From the NCBI GenBank assembly GCA_007375675.1, contig VMEU01000006.1, positions 1 to 62,220 of the forward strand: a DNA stretch of 62,220 nucleotides, in the 5' to 3' direction. The stretch is from Parcubacteria group bacterium Greene0416_39 (GTDB lineage: Bacteria > Patescibacteriota > Minisyncoccia > Minisyncoccales > UBA10102). The stretch's first letter is position 1, and each line of letters opens with the position of its first letter. The notes below the pieces were generated by a model. That model was given only the letters and a program-made list of their open reading frames with translations, did no database searches and was not told the DNA's origin. Shown here in pieces: positions 711 to 13,239 of the stretch. Position numbers and translations under genes: made by a program.

Positions 711-826
711 AGGCGGCGGCTACCTACTTTGGCAGGGAAAACCCTACTATCATCGGCCTTGGAGTATTTCACTTCCGTGTTCGGAATGGGAACGGGTGGG
801 ACAACTCCAGTATAACCGCCACCTCA
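709..826 (-). rRNA. rrf: 5S ribosomal RNA
   Basis: The conserved loop sequence CCCATTCCGAACACGGAAGT is present at the right distance from the ends. Helix I forms between GGTGGCGG (5') and CCGCCGCC (3') with one G-U pair. The length is about 117 nt. It lies about 170 bases downstream of 23S in the same orientation, separated by a palindromic repeat. It should bind uL5, uL18 and bL25; a bL25 gene is present at 18030. Confidence 0.93.
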
Positions 827-837
827 ATGCTCTTTTT

Positions 838-967
838 GCTCCTCACTATCGTTCGGAGCTTCCACTGATTTATACGGATTTTGCTGATTTATGCTGATAC
901 TAGTATCCGCATAAATCTGTCTAATCAGCATTAATCAGCGGTGTAGCGACGAGCGACAGCGAGGAGC
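838..967. repeat. Palindromic repeat family A, copy in the 23S-5S spacer
   Basis: The outer arms GCTCCTCACTATCG and CGACAGCGAGGAGC pair with A/G and C/T differences that preserve G-U pairing. Inner arms carry repeated GATTTATGC/GCATAAATC units around TATCCGCATAAAT. A second copy in the same orientation lies at 5391-5519 within 23S. Confidence 0.85.
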
Positions 968-1003
968 GAACAGTGATCACTAATTGCTAGTCGAGATCTA
1001 TTG
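967..1003 (-). other. 3' strand of the 23S processing stem
   Basis: This stretch is almost perfectly complementary to 5780-5820 over about 33 bases, with core GACTAGCAATTA. The two strands bracket 23S and merge with helix 1, as expected for an RNase III processing stem. Confidence 0.85.
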
Positions 1004-2194: not shown

Positions 2195-3007
2195 CTTGTC
2201 GGCATTTTTCTCCCTTTACAGGGAGGTTCGGACTATATCTTCACCCGCCAACATCTACGAAGTTGTGGCGGGGCTGGCATATTAGCTCTCTTTTTCAGAG
2301 AACTCCGTCCCGCTAAGCAGGACAAGTCTCTACGGGGTTATAACCCAATTTATATTGCATGGAAGGAATCACTCTATCTCCTATTAAGTCTTTCAAACGC
2401 GGAATTGACCGAGAAAGAAATCGGATTCGATAGTACTGTTTGTCTTTATTCAGACGCGCCTGCAGTCCTAACATTTTCAGTTTCTCTATCAATCTCTTTT
2501 GGTCTTCTACGCTGAACCTCTGGGTGTTGAGATAGAAATTTGATCTTCCACTTCTCCCTCCGTCATCCATGAACCATACGCTCAAGATAAGAGAATTAAT
2601 CCGAAGTTCTTTTGGGATAATCTTTTCTTTACCCACATAAAACATCCGGTACAACTCACTCAGAACAGGATGCTGTCTGGTATAAAACCGATAGGCAACC
2701 CTGTTCCCGTTTCCTCTCCTCATCTTTGGCGCGGAACGACAGATACTTTTGAGCGCCTGGAACTTCCAATCAACATATTCCTTTACGCCAAGTGAATGAT
2801 TGACTTCCAGAAACGCTTCTTTTCTTCCTGGCACAATTCGTAAGTATCCATCGCCCAAAATGGTTCCAATAACAAGAGATTTCTGCAATTGCGTTAAACT
2901 TCCCACGGTGTTGTCCATAGATATTGAGTTATTATACCATATGGAGTTCACCGTTATAAGCCAGATTTATTGTACGACATTACTGTCGTAGCACACCGAT
3001 ATCTTCA
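2195..3007 (-). other. Group I intron in 23S peptidyl-transferase loop (near E. coli 2500)
   Basis: The 5' exon ends GGCACAT and the 3' exon begins CGATGTCGGCTC, so the insertion is at about E. coli 2500. P1 forms between GCACAT and GTGTGC with a terminal U-G pair, and the intron ends in G. The core contains ATAACGGTGAACTCC and the P7 strands GTAGAGACT and GATATAGTCC. Its core and ORF start (MDNTVGSL) closely resemble those of the intron at 1331-2148, so the two share ancestry. The length is 813 nt. The P8 region carries a palindrome also found at 4357-4389 in the exon. Confidence 0.87.
2313..2918 (-). CDS. LAGLIDADG homing endonuclease of the 23S intron near 2500
   Basis: The protein is 201 aa when started at MDNTVGSL (2918). 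That start matches the homologue at 1403-2083; an upstream in-frame GTG would add 11 residues. The two motifs are VIGTILGDGYL and LSVWFMDDGG. The ORF runs to within about 120 nt of the intron 3' end and stops just before P7 (GTAGAGACT), so the last catalytic helices are free of coding constraint. The role is intron homing and possibly maturation. Both active-site acidic residues are present. Confidence 0.9.
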   Translation of the reverse strand: MDNTVGSLTQLQKSLVIGTILGDGYLRIVPGRKEAFLEVNHSLGVKEYVDWKFQALKSICRSAPKMRRGNGNRVAYRFYTRQHPVLSELYRMFYVGKEKIIPKELRINSLILSVWFMDDGGRSGRSNFYLNTQRFSVEDQKRLIEKLKMLGLQARLNKDKQYYRIRFLSRSIPRLKDLIGDRVIPSMQYKLGYNPVETCPA

Positions 3008-3755: not shown

Positions 3756-3840
3756 ACCCCGCACCACTTTGGCCTAAATTTTCACGAATTAACCATATCT
3801 TTTGGTCTTTCGTTAAATTAAAGACAAAGTGGTGCGGGGT
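3756..3840. repeat. Palindromic repeat family C inside the 23S helix 63 region
   Basis: The arms ACCCCGCACCACTTT and AAAGTGGTGCGGGGT flank an AT-rich centre with TTTCACGA and TTTGGTCTTTCGTT. By alignment it replaces the variable tip of helix 63 (about E. coli 1710-1750). A close copy lies at 13310-13393 in the 16S leader. Arms of the same type recur at 8826-8890 and 43293-43320 around other centres. Confidence 0.85.
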
Positions 3841-5390: not shown

Positions 5391-5519
5391 CGTGACTCGC
5401 TGCTGCTCGTCACTTCCGCGGATACATGCGGATTTTTGCGGATTTATGCTGATAACGTATCCGCATAAATCAGCTGTATCCGTATAAATCAGCGGTGTGG
5501 CGAACAATAGTGAGCCACG
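5391..5519. repeat. Palindromic repeat family A inside 23S domain I
   Basis: Outer arms CGTGACTCGCTGCTG and CAATAGTGAGCCACG pair with transitions only, so the RNA stem is kept. The centre GGATTTATGCTGATA-ACGTATCCGCATAAAT matches the copy at 838-967 in direct orientation. The insert sits about 290-400 nt from the 23S 5' end, in a variable part of domain I. Confidence 0.88.
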
Positions 5520-5779
5520 ACTGGTTTAGGCTTCTCCCTCTTCGCTCGCCGCTACTAAGGGAATAATATTCGTTGTTTGTTCCTCTGGGTACTGAGATGA
5601 TTCACTTCCCCAGGTACGCTACCCCGTCATTCGACAGGGCTATCCCGATTTTCATCGGGATGGGTTTCCCCATTCGGAAATCTCCGGATCAAAGGCTGCT
5701 CACCGCCTCCCCGAAGCTTATCGCAGGCACGCCACGTCCTTCATCGCCTCAACATCCCAAGGCATCCACCATTTGCCCA

Positions 5780-5820
5780 TAACAATGCAATAGATACGAC
5801 TAGCAATTACTAATCACTGT
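5780..5820 (-). other. 5' strand of the 23S processing stem
   Basis: It pairs with 967-1003 over about 33 bases. The mature 23S 5' end should lie at its inner border near 5793. Confidence 0.85.
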
Positions 5821-6738: not shown

Positions 6739-6759
6739 ATGATGTAAAACTTGTTATGC

Positions 6760-6838
6760 CCCGTAGTAGAACTTTGGCTACCTTCGGCGACGATGTGTCT
6801 CGCGTAGCGAGACACATGCCAAAGTTTCACTACAGGGT
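6760..6838. repeat. Palindromic repeat family B, first copy
   Basis: Arms CCGTAGTAGAACTTTGGC and GCCAAAGTTTCACTACAGG surround CTTCGGCGACGATGTG and the inner palindrome TGTCTCGCGTAGCGAGACA. A second copy lies at 25865-25943 with its outer arms swapped but its centre in the same orientation. Confidence 0.88.
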
Positions 6839-6903
6839 ATGAATGAGTACAATCGACCTTTCCGGGTATTACGATAGTATACCAGGGGTCAAGGGAACTG
6901 TCC

Positions 6904-6912: not shown

Positions 6913-6995
6913 CTTAAGATAATGCAAATTTACGAATGACTGCGAATGTACAAATTCGAGTATTCGCGGCATTCGTTTTCATTTGTAGATTTGCA

Positions 6996-7457
6996 TTATT
7001 TATTCTTTGCGGCCTCAGTCTTTGCAAACATCTCTGCAATTTCCTCTACTACGTCCTGCAAGGCCTTTGCAGCTTCCATATTTACCTCCTGTTTTACCTT
7101 AGAGCAGAGTTTTGCAGCTTTCCAAAATTTCTCATGCAAGCCAGGAAACATTACAAGATGCTCTGGTTTGAAGTAATCGGTCCAGAGGATCAGTAGTTCT
7201 TTCTTGCACAGTTGCGCGTGCTCCTCTTTCACTGCAATATATCGAACCAGAGAATTTGCTTTGGAGGGTACAGGACTGTACCCTCCTTTGCCCTCCGCTA
7301 TCTCTGCTTTTTCAATAAGTTCCACCATGCGCACCACGGTTTTTGCCGCAGTTCTCGCAGGCTCTGGGGTATAAATCCCGCATGGAATATCGCAGTGGGC
7401 ATACACCATCTTGGCAGGGAAAAACTTGTTCAAAAACGAAAACATAGAATACAGCAT
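6996..7457 (-). CDS. sodN: Nickel superoxide dismutase precursor
   Basis: The 153-aa protein carries HCDIPCGIYTP, the nickel hook of Ni-SOD (family HCDLPCGVYDP), with His1, Cys2, Cys6 and Tyr9 all present. A second signature, LWTDYFKPEHL, also matches the family. The start at 7457 was chosen because a promoter ends 8 bases before it; it leaves a 20-residue leader that must be removed to expose the nickel-binding His. The enzyme dismutates superoxide to peroxide and oxygen. A lysine-rich C-terminal tail extends beyond the usual length of 117. No SodX leader peptidase gene is seen nearby, so processing must be encoded elsewhere or differ. Confidence 0.9.
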   Translation of the reverse strand: MLYSMFSFLNKFFPAKMVYAHCDIPCGIYTPEPARTAAKTVVRMVELIEKAEIAEGKGGYSPVPSKANSLVRYIAVKEEHAQLCKKELLILWTDYFKPEHLVMFPGLHEKFWKAAKLCSKVKQEVNMEAAKALQDVVEEIAEMFAKTEAAKNK

Positions 7458-10032: not shown

Positions 10033-10872
10033 AATATTTTCTACGAACTTAGAATTGACGTTCCCATCGCGCCTGCGGATTTCCCGCACGCGACGAGCTC
10101 TAGTGCATCTGCTGTTTTAAAGCATACAGATTTGCTAACCCTATTTTGGTCAAATGTTCTCCCTTCTTAATTCTTTTCATCAAATCGCAGAAAATTCTGA
10201 AGTCTTTCAGCTTAGATTTTAATCGCAATCGGTATCGCCTAAAGAAAGGAACGATAATTTTCTCCAAATCCTTTCTATTCGCTACCTCATAGCGATAGCA
10301 ATTCTGATGATTCTTTCGTTTATCCACTTGGAAGTAGACATTTCCACAGCGAAAGAACTCTTTAAGCTTATAGAGAATATCTTTATCCCTTTCAATAAGC
10401 TTAAGATAGAATCGAGGTTCAACTTTGACTCTTCTTTTTACTTGTGTTTGTATCTGAGGATTCTTCACGTACACCGTAAAGCTTCCTTCCCCATCTACAA
10501 GCCCAAGAATGTAATCAGGAGTTAACATAATTAGAGAAAGTCCTTCCCCTTGCGGGTACTATGACTTAGCTGACTTCTGACGCTGCGTAAGTTCATTATA
10601 TCTCACATCCTGTGAAATAACAACGTCAGATCTCCTCGGGTTACTCAGTACTCTATTCCAGGCATCCTAGATGGACTTTCATTCTAACCTTCCTCATCCT
10701 CACCGCCTGTAATGAGTCGGTCATCCATTGTTTTTCTAGGCTGTCTTTTGCCGCCAGGTCCTTCGCTTGCCATCTCGCGATGGCAAACTACCTTTTGGCT
10801 ACGTCCCGAAGGCGTACATCGGGAGTGCGGATTTGAACCGCACAGAATACTAAGCTGCCGAGCGCTTTTATT
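10033..10872 (-). other. Probable group II intron at the 16S decoding site (about E. coli 1399)
   Basis: The exon halves CTGCACTCAC and CGCCCGTC join to the universal 1391-1408 segment, so the insertion is near C1399/C1400. Unlike the other four introns it lacks the P7 pair GAGACT/ATAGTC. Near its 3' end a hairpin has a 9-bp lower stem (CTCGTCGCG/CGCGATGGG), a two-base bulge on the 3' side and a 5-bp upper stem (TGCGG/CCGCA) closed by GAAAT, the shape of domain V. Upstream of the ORF lies GTCAGAAGTCAGCTAAGTC, which I recall from bacterial group II introns. A clear GTGYG 5' end is missing, so the class is probable, not proven. Confidence 0.6.
10100..10528 (-). CDS. Single-motif LAGLIDADG endonuclease or maturase in the 16S intron near 1399
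   Basis: The 142-aa protein begins MLTPDYILGLVDGEGSF, one LAGLIDADG helix (YILGLVDGEGSF), followed by a fold with FYLKLIERDKDIL and a lysine/arginine-rich C-terminus. One motif means it should act as a homodimer; it belongs to a different LAGLIDADG family from the four two-motif proteins in this window. It occupies the position of domain IV in a presumed group II intron, where a reverse transcriptase is normally found; none is present here. It may serve in homing, in splicing, or both. Confidence 0.87.
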   Translation of the reverse strand: MLTPDYILGLVDGEGSFTVYVKNPQIQTQVKRRVKVEPRFYLKLIERDKDILYKLKEFFRCGNVYFQVDKRKNHQNCYRYEVANRKDLEKIIVPFFRRYRLRLKSKLKDFRIFCDLMKRIKKGEHLTKIGLANLYALKQQMH

Positions 10873-11342
10873 GTGAGTGCAGGACCCAGGAACATATTCC
10901 GCGCCACATGGCTGATTGGCGCGTACTAGCGATTCCGACTTCATGAGGTCGAGTTTCAGACCTCAATCCGAACTGAGGAATAGTTTAAGGGATTAGCTCC
11001 GCGTTGCCGCCTTGCAACCCTCTGTCTATTCCATTGTAACATGTGTGCCGCCCAGGATATCAAAGGGCCACGCTGACTTGGCGTCATCCCCGCCTTCCTC
11101 TTGGTTGTCCCAAGCAGTTCTCTGTGACACATAAAACACAGAGTAGGGGTTGCGCATGTTGCCCGATTTAACGGAGCGCCTCAAGGTACATGCTGACGAC
11201 AGCCGTGCAGCACCTGGACTAATGTCCTTGTGGGTGGCCCCGACTTTCGTCGGGGTTTCATTAGTCTGTCAAACCCTGGTAAGGTTCTTCGGTTGTTGAC
11301 GAATTAAGCCACATGTTCCACCGCTTGTGTGGGTCCCCGCCT

Positions 11343-11374
<32 letters not shown>

Positions 11375-11470
11375 TCCCAGGCGGGATGCTTAACGCGTTA
11401 GCTTCGCCACGTGAAGGGTCGACACTTCACATAGCCAGCATCCAATGTTTAGGGCGTGGACTACAAGGGT

Positions 11471-12449
11471 CATCTTGTAGAATTTTTACTATCCGTGTTG
11501 CCACGGAGATCGGACTATATCACTTTCTGAAATCGCTTATACCTTGATTTTTTCTCTGCAAGATATTTTTCTATCACGTCACGAGAAAACGATGTTTTCT
11601 CGACGACTTCAGAAATCCAGCGTTCTTGTAATTGGGAATCTTTGTAAAGAAGAATAACTTTGGGTAGTATACTTGCCACTGGAACATACGGTAGAATGAT
11701 GCGTAAGAACTTTTTGAGTTCTTCGCTCGAACGGATCCATAATCGGTAATACTCACGCTTTGTCCCGTCACGCTCTCGAACAATCTTCGCAATCGCGACT
11801 TTAACTTTCCAGACCTTCTGCAGGTACTGTGCTAAAATCTTTTGGTCTTCGAGCAGAAACGGGTCCGTGCAAAACACTCCGCGTTTTCCATTACCAATCA
11901 ACGAACCATCATCAAGCCACCACACCGCCAACGAAAGCGGTGTCAGCTGGTTAAGCCATTTTCGCTTAATGACTAAGCGATTATGCTTATGGGTCAGCTG
12001 GTATAATTCACTAAGTTGCTCTAGTGCTAGGCTCTGATATCGCAACATTTCTCCACCATAGCCATTCGGTTCTTGCTTCCACCAGCATTTTTCTCCGGAA
12101 ATCTCTTTCAACTGTTCAACTTTCCAGAAGAAATAATCCTGTTGGAGAACCGAGTGACGAAAAGAAAAACGTGCGTTCTTGTAGGGTTTTTGGATCCTTA
12201 AAGATCCGTCACCAAGCAAAGAACCCAGCATAACTTCTTTACATCGATCCGACAAAAATGAATGCTTTGTATTCATTTTCTATCTTCTTACTTACATAGT
12301 CTCTACGGGGTCAATACCTCTATCGAGGCTGACTTCCCTCGGGATTGTCCGTTCGACTGAACGGAGTTCCCCGATATAGCTAGATGCGCACTCCGATGTT
12401 GCCACCGAAGGGGACACCATTCGTCTCGTTTCATACGAGACAAGGATTT
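11471..12449 (-). other. Group I intron in the 16S 790 loop (about E. coli 793)
   Basis: The 5' exon ends GGATTAGAT and the 3' exon begins ACCCTTGTAGTCC. Joining restores the conserved 785-806 segment with the junction at 793/794. The intron ends in G. P7 is formed by GTAGAGACTA and GATATAGTCC. Unlike the other group I introns, its core (TATCGGGGAACTCC ... GAGGGAAGTCAGCC) lies entirely 5' of the ORF, and the ORF sits inside the P8-side loop. The length is 979 nt. Confidence 0.86.
11515..12276 (-). CDS. LAGLIDADG homing endonuclease of the 16S intron near 793
   Basis: The 253-aa protein has motifs VMLGSLLGDGSLRI (near residue 15) and LSLAVWWLDDGSL (near residue 115). Between them are WKVEQLKEISG and similar blocks of the two-motif family. 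It is the longest of the five and carries an extra basic C-terminal region (YLAEKKSRYKRFQ). It starts 25 bases after the first P7 strand, so translation does not run through the ribozyme core. It is likely to be active, with acidic residues in both motifs. Confidence 0.9.
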   Translation of the reverse strand: MNTKHSFLSDRCKEVMLGSLLGDGSLRIQKPYKNARFSFRHSVLQQDYFFWKVEQLKEISGEKCWWKQEPNGYGGEMLRYQSLALEQLSELYQLTHKHNRLVIKRKWLNQLTPLSLAVWWLDDGSLIGNGKRGVFCTDPFLLEDQKILAQYLQKVWKVKVAIAKIVRERDGTKREYYRLWIRSSEELKKFLRIILPYVPVASILPKVILLYKDSQLQERWISEVVEKTSFSRDVIEKYLAEKKSRYKRFQKVI

Positions 12450-13188
12450 ATCTAATCCTTTTTGCTCCCCACGCTTTCGTCCCTCACCGTCAGGGTTGCC
12501 CCAGCTGAATGCTTTCGCCTTTGGTGTTCTTCTCGATATCAACGGATTTCACCCCTCCACCGAGAATTCCATCAGCCTCTAACACCCTCTAGCCCGCCAG
12601 TTTTCCCTGCAGTTCCAAGGTTGAGCCCTGGACATTTAACAAGAAACTTGGCGGGCCGGCTACGGACGCTTTACGCCCAGTAAATCCGGATAACGCTTGG
12701 AGGCTCTGTTTTACCGCTACTGCTGGCACAGAGTTAGTCCCTCCTTATTCTCAGGGTACCTTCTTCCCTCGATTGCTCTCGGGATTATTCCCCTGCAAAA
12801 GTGGTTTACAACCCGAAGGCCTTCATCCCACACGCGGTGTCGCTGGATCAGGGTTTCCCCCATTGTCCAATATTCTCGGCTGCTGCCTCCCGTAGGAGTA
12901 TGGCCCGTATCTCAATGCCATCGTTGGGGAACGCGCTCTCACGCCCCCTACCCGTCATAGCCTTGGTAGGCTTTTACCCTGCCAACTAGCTGATAGGACG
13001 CAGACCGCTCCCAAAGTGGATTACTCCTTTACCCTTCGATTGCTCTCAGGGACCATCGGGAATTAGCTCCGCTTTCGCGGAGTTATGCCCGTCTTTGGGG
13101 TACGTATCTACGTGTTACTAACTCGTTTGCCGCTGCTCCCTCGGTCTTGCGACCTCGGGAACCGCTTGACTTGCATGCCTTATCCACA

Positions 13189-13224
<36 letters not shown>

Positions 13225-13239
13225 TGGCTAAACTTGAGA

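Follow-up and report, generated by a model that had tools for sequence, protein, structure and literature searches.

Two copies of one element in an rRNA operon

The window, by which we mean the whole 62,220-nt stretch analysed here, is one contig of a small Patescibacteria genome, that of Parcubacteria group bacterium Greene0416_39 (517 kb, 14 contigs). Its 16S, 23S and 5S rRNA genes all lie on the minus strand (Table 1). Aligned to RF02541, the 23S gene has 122 nt in a domain I hairpin where the model has a 5-nt loop. A second copy of the same element occupies the gap between the 5S gene and one strand of an inverted repeat (92% complementary, partner at 5797-5820), which we infer from its position to be the pre-23S processing stem. 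The first-pass annotation had recognised two copies of an element and had placed one of them in a variable 23S helix, and both statements are borne out. The fold energy of each copy is far below that of its 200 shuffles (z -9.5 for the 23S copy and -11.2 for the spacer copy), the mean column identity of the two aligned copies is 81%, and blastn within the genome matches them at E = 2e-15, which is far beyond chance. The helix carrying the 23S copy does vary in length among relatives. The copies had also been described as lying in direct orientation, and this has to be reversed. Once the arms are included, the copies match over their full length (842-963) in inverted orientation, and their asymmetric end motifs face opposite ways. 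The core aligns in either orientation because it is palindromic.

There are other features of note in the window. The 3' part of the 23S gene holds two LAGLIDADG_2 reading frames, presumably in group I introns. Another long inverted repeat of that gene, in a different helix and of unrelated sequence, has 26-nt arms that are 88% complementary. The 16S gene is about 2.4 kb long and so carries an insert or inserts of roughly 0.9 kb. A nested palindrome with a GCGTAGC centre lies between two ORFs, and a further palindrome apparently belongs to a second dispersed family of this genome, the ACGAATGACTGCGAATG type, found elsewhere just 5' of start codons (C4:96540, C12:21570 and C12:47399).

Table 1. 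Positions, strands and evidence for features of the window.
Feature	Position	Strand	Evidence or remark
5S rRNA	711..823	-	RNA model match
Second copy of the element, in the 23S-5S spacer	838..967	+	End motifs oriented opposite to the 23S copy
End motif L of spacer copy	841..856	+	
Inner palindrome of spacer copy	862..941	.	Inverted repeat found in the window; matched within the genome
End motif R of spacer copy	948..963	+	
Putative pre-23S processing stem, 3' strand	970..993	.	Adjoins the spacer copy
LAGLIDADG_2 ORFs	1403-2083 and 2313-2951	-	In the 3' part of the 23S gene
Long inverted repeat in the 23S gene	3756-3840		
Insert in the 23S rRNA gene, in place of a domain I hairpin loop	5393..5514	-	RF02541 model ~274-290, alignment [122] vs [5]; fold z -9.5
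End motif R of 23S copy, GACGAGCAGCAGCGAG	5396..5411	-	Conserved in 25 elements
Inner palindrome of 23S copy, ~10-nt quasi-repeats	5416..5495	.	Copy of genome-specific dispersed repeat
End motif L of 23S copy, CTCACTATTGTTCGC	5500..5514	-	Conserved in 25 elements
Basal 23S helix, 5' strand, CCAGUCGUGG	5515..5525	-	Equivalent columns covary across 25 elements
Nested palindrome	6756-6840		
Palindrome, ACGAATGACTGCGAATG type	6919-6999		
16S rRNA gene	10808-13230	-	

Inner palindromes and shared arms

Each copy is composite, with an inner and an outer module that differ in distribution. The inner module, 80 nt, consists of ~10-nt quasi-repeats (ATCMGCATAA) arranged as two inverted halves. The outer arms, CCTCACTnnGTTCGG ... 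CCGAGCnnAGCGAGG, are common to other Patescibacteria, with the consensus CCTCACTnn(n)GTTCGG for L and CCGAGCnn(n)AGCGAGG for R. Within its own genome the L/R pair occurs only in the two rRNA-operon copies, whereas the inner family has five further loci, mostly intergenic. There is a full copy on contig C6 (E 1e-17) and another copy on C4, between a histidine kinase gene and a response regulator gene. Two half copies on C11, each terminating in an R-like hairpin, stand just 5' of the start codons of ribosomal protein genes, rplJ (by Pfam) and rpmJ (by eye), and a half copy on C13 (L017 1225-1275) forms part of the reading frame of a Mur ligase C domain, as ESISINQQNPHKSAV. The exact core was absent from 378 other Patescibacteria genomes in a pattern search, so in terms of sequence the inner family belongs to this genome alone. 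Sequences more weakly related to the core do occur in some genomes of the order. As a dispersed, genome-specific palindromic repeat, mainly extragenic, it has the distribution of a REP/REPIN family.

The 23S site was compared among relatives, which are designated here by G numbers. About 33 of them have just 6-30 nt at this site, a count in which the helix end is loosely placed in a few cases. At least 109 nt are found in eight genomes, the present one included. Six of the eight have the L/R arms (the present genome, G051, G056, G059, G063 and G099), and the other two, G002 and G013, have other palindromes. Presence among relatives is therefore sporadic, as it is for 23S intervening sequences (IVS). 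The inner sequence of the G063 insert recurs at five further loci in G063 and that of the G056 insert at ~25 loci in G056. The dispersed inner copies examined are mostly between genes, often in gaps of only 3-12 nt, with a few inside ORFs. A scan of ~85,000 named genomes for an anchor plus the L motif gave 13 matches, eight of which are the domain I 23S site in MAGs, two of these eight apparently being the same contigs as G051 and G099. The eight are assigned to Paceibacterota, Parcubacteria, Vogelbacteria and Spechtbacteria, with one unassigned and one labelled Gastranaerophilales; the arms are common to all, and the inner palindromes are unrelated. The Gastranaerophilales-labelled sequence (L139), a short contig with a Patescibacteria-like 23S gene and the element, is probably mis-binned. 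The element had been called mobile-looking from the window alone. That description gains from the five other loci of the inner part, from the many relatives without the insert and from the different dispersed palindromes that other genomes carry at the same spot. The whole-genome search proposed with it found dispersed and intergenic inner copies, and the pattern that would have spoken for an ordinary expansion segment, an expansion in all relatives with no intergenic copies, is absent.

Arm pairs in structured RNAs

In 247 genomes of the order, the L motif gave 25 matches in 22 genomes against 3 for a reversed control, and the form with two bases between the halves is commoner than the three-base form. 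Every arm pair found by exact pattern belongs to a structured-RNA gene, the sole exception being the copy in the window's rRNA spacer. Besides the pairs at the domain I site of 23S, there is one in the loop of 23S helix 25 in G476, and G061 and G084 add two more 23S sites, with flanks that match the region up to helix 45; we take this site to be helix 45. Three genomes (G036, G059 and G086) have a pair in the loop of 16S helix 6. A 16S insert of G038 also carries a pair, and there the flanks look intron-like by eye against the window's own intron, so that the host sequence is probably an intron. Two pairs are in RNase P RNA. In G032 the RNA matches RF00010 at E = 7e-27, with a score that the insert brings slightly below the gathering threshold. 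The pair in G061, just before the conserved GGAGGAAAGUCC, was placed by sequence, with the model match lying downstream. An L match in the 16S gene of G500 has no R by pattern, looser arm variants occur at the helix-45-type site of G062 and as a variant pair in the 16S leader of G063, and the other L matches without a paired R are single small hairpins. The rRNA and RNase P genes make up an estimated ~1% of such genomes, so the concentration of arm pairs in RNA genes is not due to chance. In viral contigs an L-like pattern gave 18 matches, about the chance number by a rough estimate. Several long inserts in one gene were also seen at additional rRNA hairpin loops (L208, L218): the 23S gene of G476 has inserts of 102, 173 and 162 nt, and the 16S gene of G086 has ~140 nt at a second loop.

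The same inner sequence can be found at two RNA sites of one genome, namely in 23S and spacer here, in 23S and RNase P RNA in G061, and at two 23S sites in L142. Between genomes the inner sequences differ, A/T-rich ones excepted. Judged from the sequences, repetition within a genome and difference between genomes is the trace that a mobile or copied module would be expected to leave.

Pairing as such is conserved. Across 25 elements, picked partly by motif, which fixes the motif columns and not the stem columns carrying compensatory changes, 86.5% of cells in the L:R helix and basal stem are paired, and none of 500 shuffles was as high. Slid controls of the arm alignment reach 32-47%, and 14 of its 26 pairs have changed on both sides. 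The motif letters themselves are near-invariant. Alignment columns 17-54 form an A-C mismatch in 25/25 elements, so the motif region is conserved as sequence, and a U-G pair within the motif is present in 24/25. The first-pass annotation had argued that the arm differences are nearly all transitions keeping G-U pairing and that the folded RNA is under selection. The differences are mostly transitions, but about half of them give an A-C mismatch and not G-U. Selection on the fold is thus partly supported: the outer stem has strong compensatory change, but the wobble argument for the arms fails, the A-C mismatch being invariant. Each arm can alternatively be drawn as a local hairpin, CC-GA-RC-GN(N)A-GY-GA-GG (as it reads on R or, for L, on the complementary strand), with tandem G-A and a GN(N)A loop. 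In this model the L hairpin is paired in 90% of cells and the R hairpin in 76%, and such hairpins may possibly be an alternative state of the arms. The R form alone, CC-GA-GC-GN(N)A-GC-GA-GG, has ~150 matches, spread over 47 of 100 genomes, whereas the reversed pattern has 2. These small hairpins (L145-L174), enriched throughout the order, were seen close to tRNAs, as part of a terminator-like hairpin and as a repeated AAGGTTCTGCC...GGCAGGTTCTTA form.

Origin of the insert

In our view the insert is likely to be a composite mobile palindrome of the non-autonomous kind, which enters at hairpin tips and resembles a 23S IVS in its behaviour. Conserved end motifs surround the host's own dispersed palindrome in the loop of a variable 23S hairpin, with the helix extended outwards, and elsewhere in the order other structured RNAs have the same framed design at the tips of their hairpins. 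The element would arrive by insertion into palindromes or hairpin tips, perhaps as a palindrome nesting in a palindrome. A precedent is provided by insertion sequences that have REP palindromes as their target (PMC1525189). The insert would be tolerated because a surface hairpin is only lengthened. A full RNase III gene is present in the genome (G000:C11:37224-37877), and with a long hairpin and this enzyme in the cell, the precursor would probably be cut, so that the insert acts like an IVS; the spacer copy could be read likewise and be trimmed with the precursor. RNase III removes intervening sequences at the helix-25 site, where at least one family member (G476) is located. The 23S copy, which the first-pass annotation presumed to be present in the ribosome, may be retained there or cut out. 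Mismatches interrupt its predicted hairpin, and RNase III need not cleave it.

An ordinary expansion segment, a variable helix that grew in place and resembles intergenic palindromes by coincidence or convergence, would agree with the variable helix length among relatives and with a basal stem that covaries as an rRNA helix should. The insert, however, is neither homologous among relatives nor confined to rRNA: its inner sequence matches dispersed copies in its own genome, such as that on C6, unrelated inner sequences sit within the same arms in other genomes, and these arms also occur in 16S and RNase P RNA. We rejected this candidate on the dispersed copies and the short loop of most relatives, and we regard it as very unlikely. 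That the insert is the remnant of a group I or II intron seems hardly credible, even with two LAGLIDADG-coding inserts in the same 23S gene and with introns common in CPR rRNA (PMC11270868). What occupies the loop is a simple hairpin, whose inner part has further copies between protein genes. An RNA model search of the window found no intron family at gathering score and no group I catalytic core, and a group I intron was rejected for want of such a match.

The remaining alternatives concern what the arms do and what moves the palindrome. It is conceivable, if somewhat doubtful, that the arms act as a signal for RNA processing. Some nuclease, which might be RNase III, would recognise the helix formed by the arms, including the invariant A-C mismatch and the wobble pairs, and excise the insert; essential RNAs would then retain palindromes only where arms frame them. 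This would fit the restriction of arm pairs to structured-RNA genes and the rRNA spacer or leader, with bare inner palindromes mostly between protein genes, and it would fit the near-invariant arm bases and the presence of an RNase III gene. It fits less well with the occurrence of both arm orientations, in 23S and spacer, and with an R motif that is common alone as a small hairpin elsewhere in these genomes. Mobilisation of a REP/REPIN-like element by a Y1 (RAYT) transposase of the genome we consider unlikely. There are five Y1_Tnp genes in this genome and at least one in 34 of 60 relatives, and REPINs are likewise inverted hairpin pairs with singlets. However, two Y1 genes of this genome have hairpins of another kind beside them, with a GTCCGTCC loop, and among the scanned Y1 loci the L/R end motifs were absent from the flanks, bar one weak two-mismatch match each in two loci. 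The RAYT link was rejected on this near absence, no RAYT gene being flanked by the same repeat. By eye, no GTAG or CGTC tag is conserved at the palindrome ends of the 25 aligned arm pairs, CGTC appearing only in a minority of R arms. Hairpins with the GTCCGTCC loop lie on both sides of the Y1 transposase genes at L079 and L082. Palindrome families could also grow or move by template switching during replication, which we counted against the mobile reading. We likewise counted against it that neither transposition nor an empty-site polymorphism or target duplication was observed directly, no clean empty site of high identity being available, and that no transposase could be linked to the element.

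The composite mobile palindrome that we favour has likenesses to several known systems. The domain I site is, to our knowledge, not among the classical sites of 23S IVS. Those at helix 25 and 45 (Campylobacter PMC2801512, Coxiella PMC4990558) are likewise stem-loops at a 23S hairpin tip and sporadic in relatives, and the arm family has its G476 member at the first site and others, by their flanks, at the second. Unlike them, the insert copies a genome-wide palindromic repeat with conserved ends, and its arm family, known here from sequence alone, extends to 16S, RNase P RNA, spacers and a probable intron. For the same bacterial group, Tsurumaki et al. 2024 (PMC11270868) report many inserts in CPR 23S genes, including short (<200 bp) ORF-less ones like ours, of which those at 23IS2 and 23IS4 are thought to be IVS removed by RNase III; the main text makes no mention of palindromes or hairpins, and its section on these inserts describes neither shared ends nor dispersed copies. 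REP, REPIN and BIME elements (PMC3116915, PMC3733652) are also short palindromes in genome-specific, mostly intergenic families with halves and inverted pairs, but the element here is longer, has a ~10-nt internal periodicity, lies inside rRNA and has no REP tag or RAYT neighbour that we could find. Rickettsia palindromic elements, compared by description, lie in frame in protein genes, as does the C13 half copy in the Mur ligase, but do not share the RNA-gene preference of the arm pairs. They are defined in Rickettsia. Mobile hairpins are also present in mitochondrial rRNA variable regions of Allomyces. Mitochondrial double-hairpin and repetitive hairpin-forming elements (PMC2800124, PMC5910586) are mobile hairpins in spacers, but, again by description, they belong to eukaryotic organelles, and the end-motif pair is specific to the Patescibacteria family. 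A literature search that covered few subscription papers gave no published account of the shared end motifs, of the dispersed copies or of an occurrence of this element in RNase P RNA, and no publication on palindromic elements in RNase P RNA.

Tentatively, we propose that Patescibacteria have a family of composite mobile hairpins, not described before, that may specialise in colonising the tips of hairpins in structured RNAs (23S, 16S, RNase P RNA and probably introns). The ends would have two roles, one in inserting the element at palindrome tips and one in marking it for processing, which keeps the host RNA functional. They would for this reason be common to genomes, and each genome would fill in its own palindrome. 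If true, this would explain many uncharacterised short inserts in Patescibacteria rRNA genes, and it could give a common origin for the classical 23S intervening sequences and some variable-helix expansions. Bacterial repeats would then be seen invading essential RNAs, with the testable predictions of fragmented 23S, cleaved arms and presence/absence polymorphism in organisms with already unusual ribosomes.
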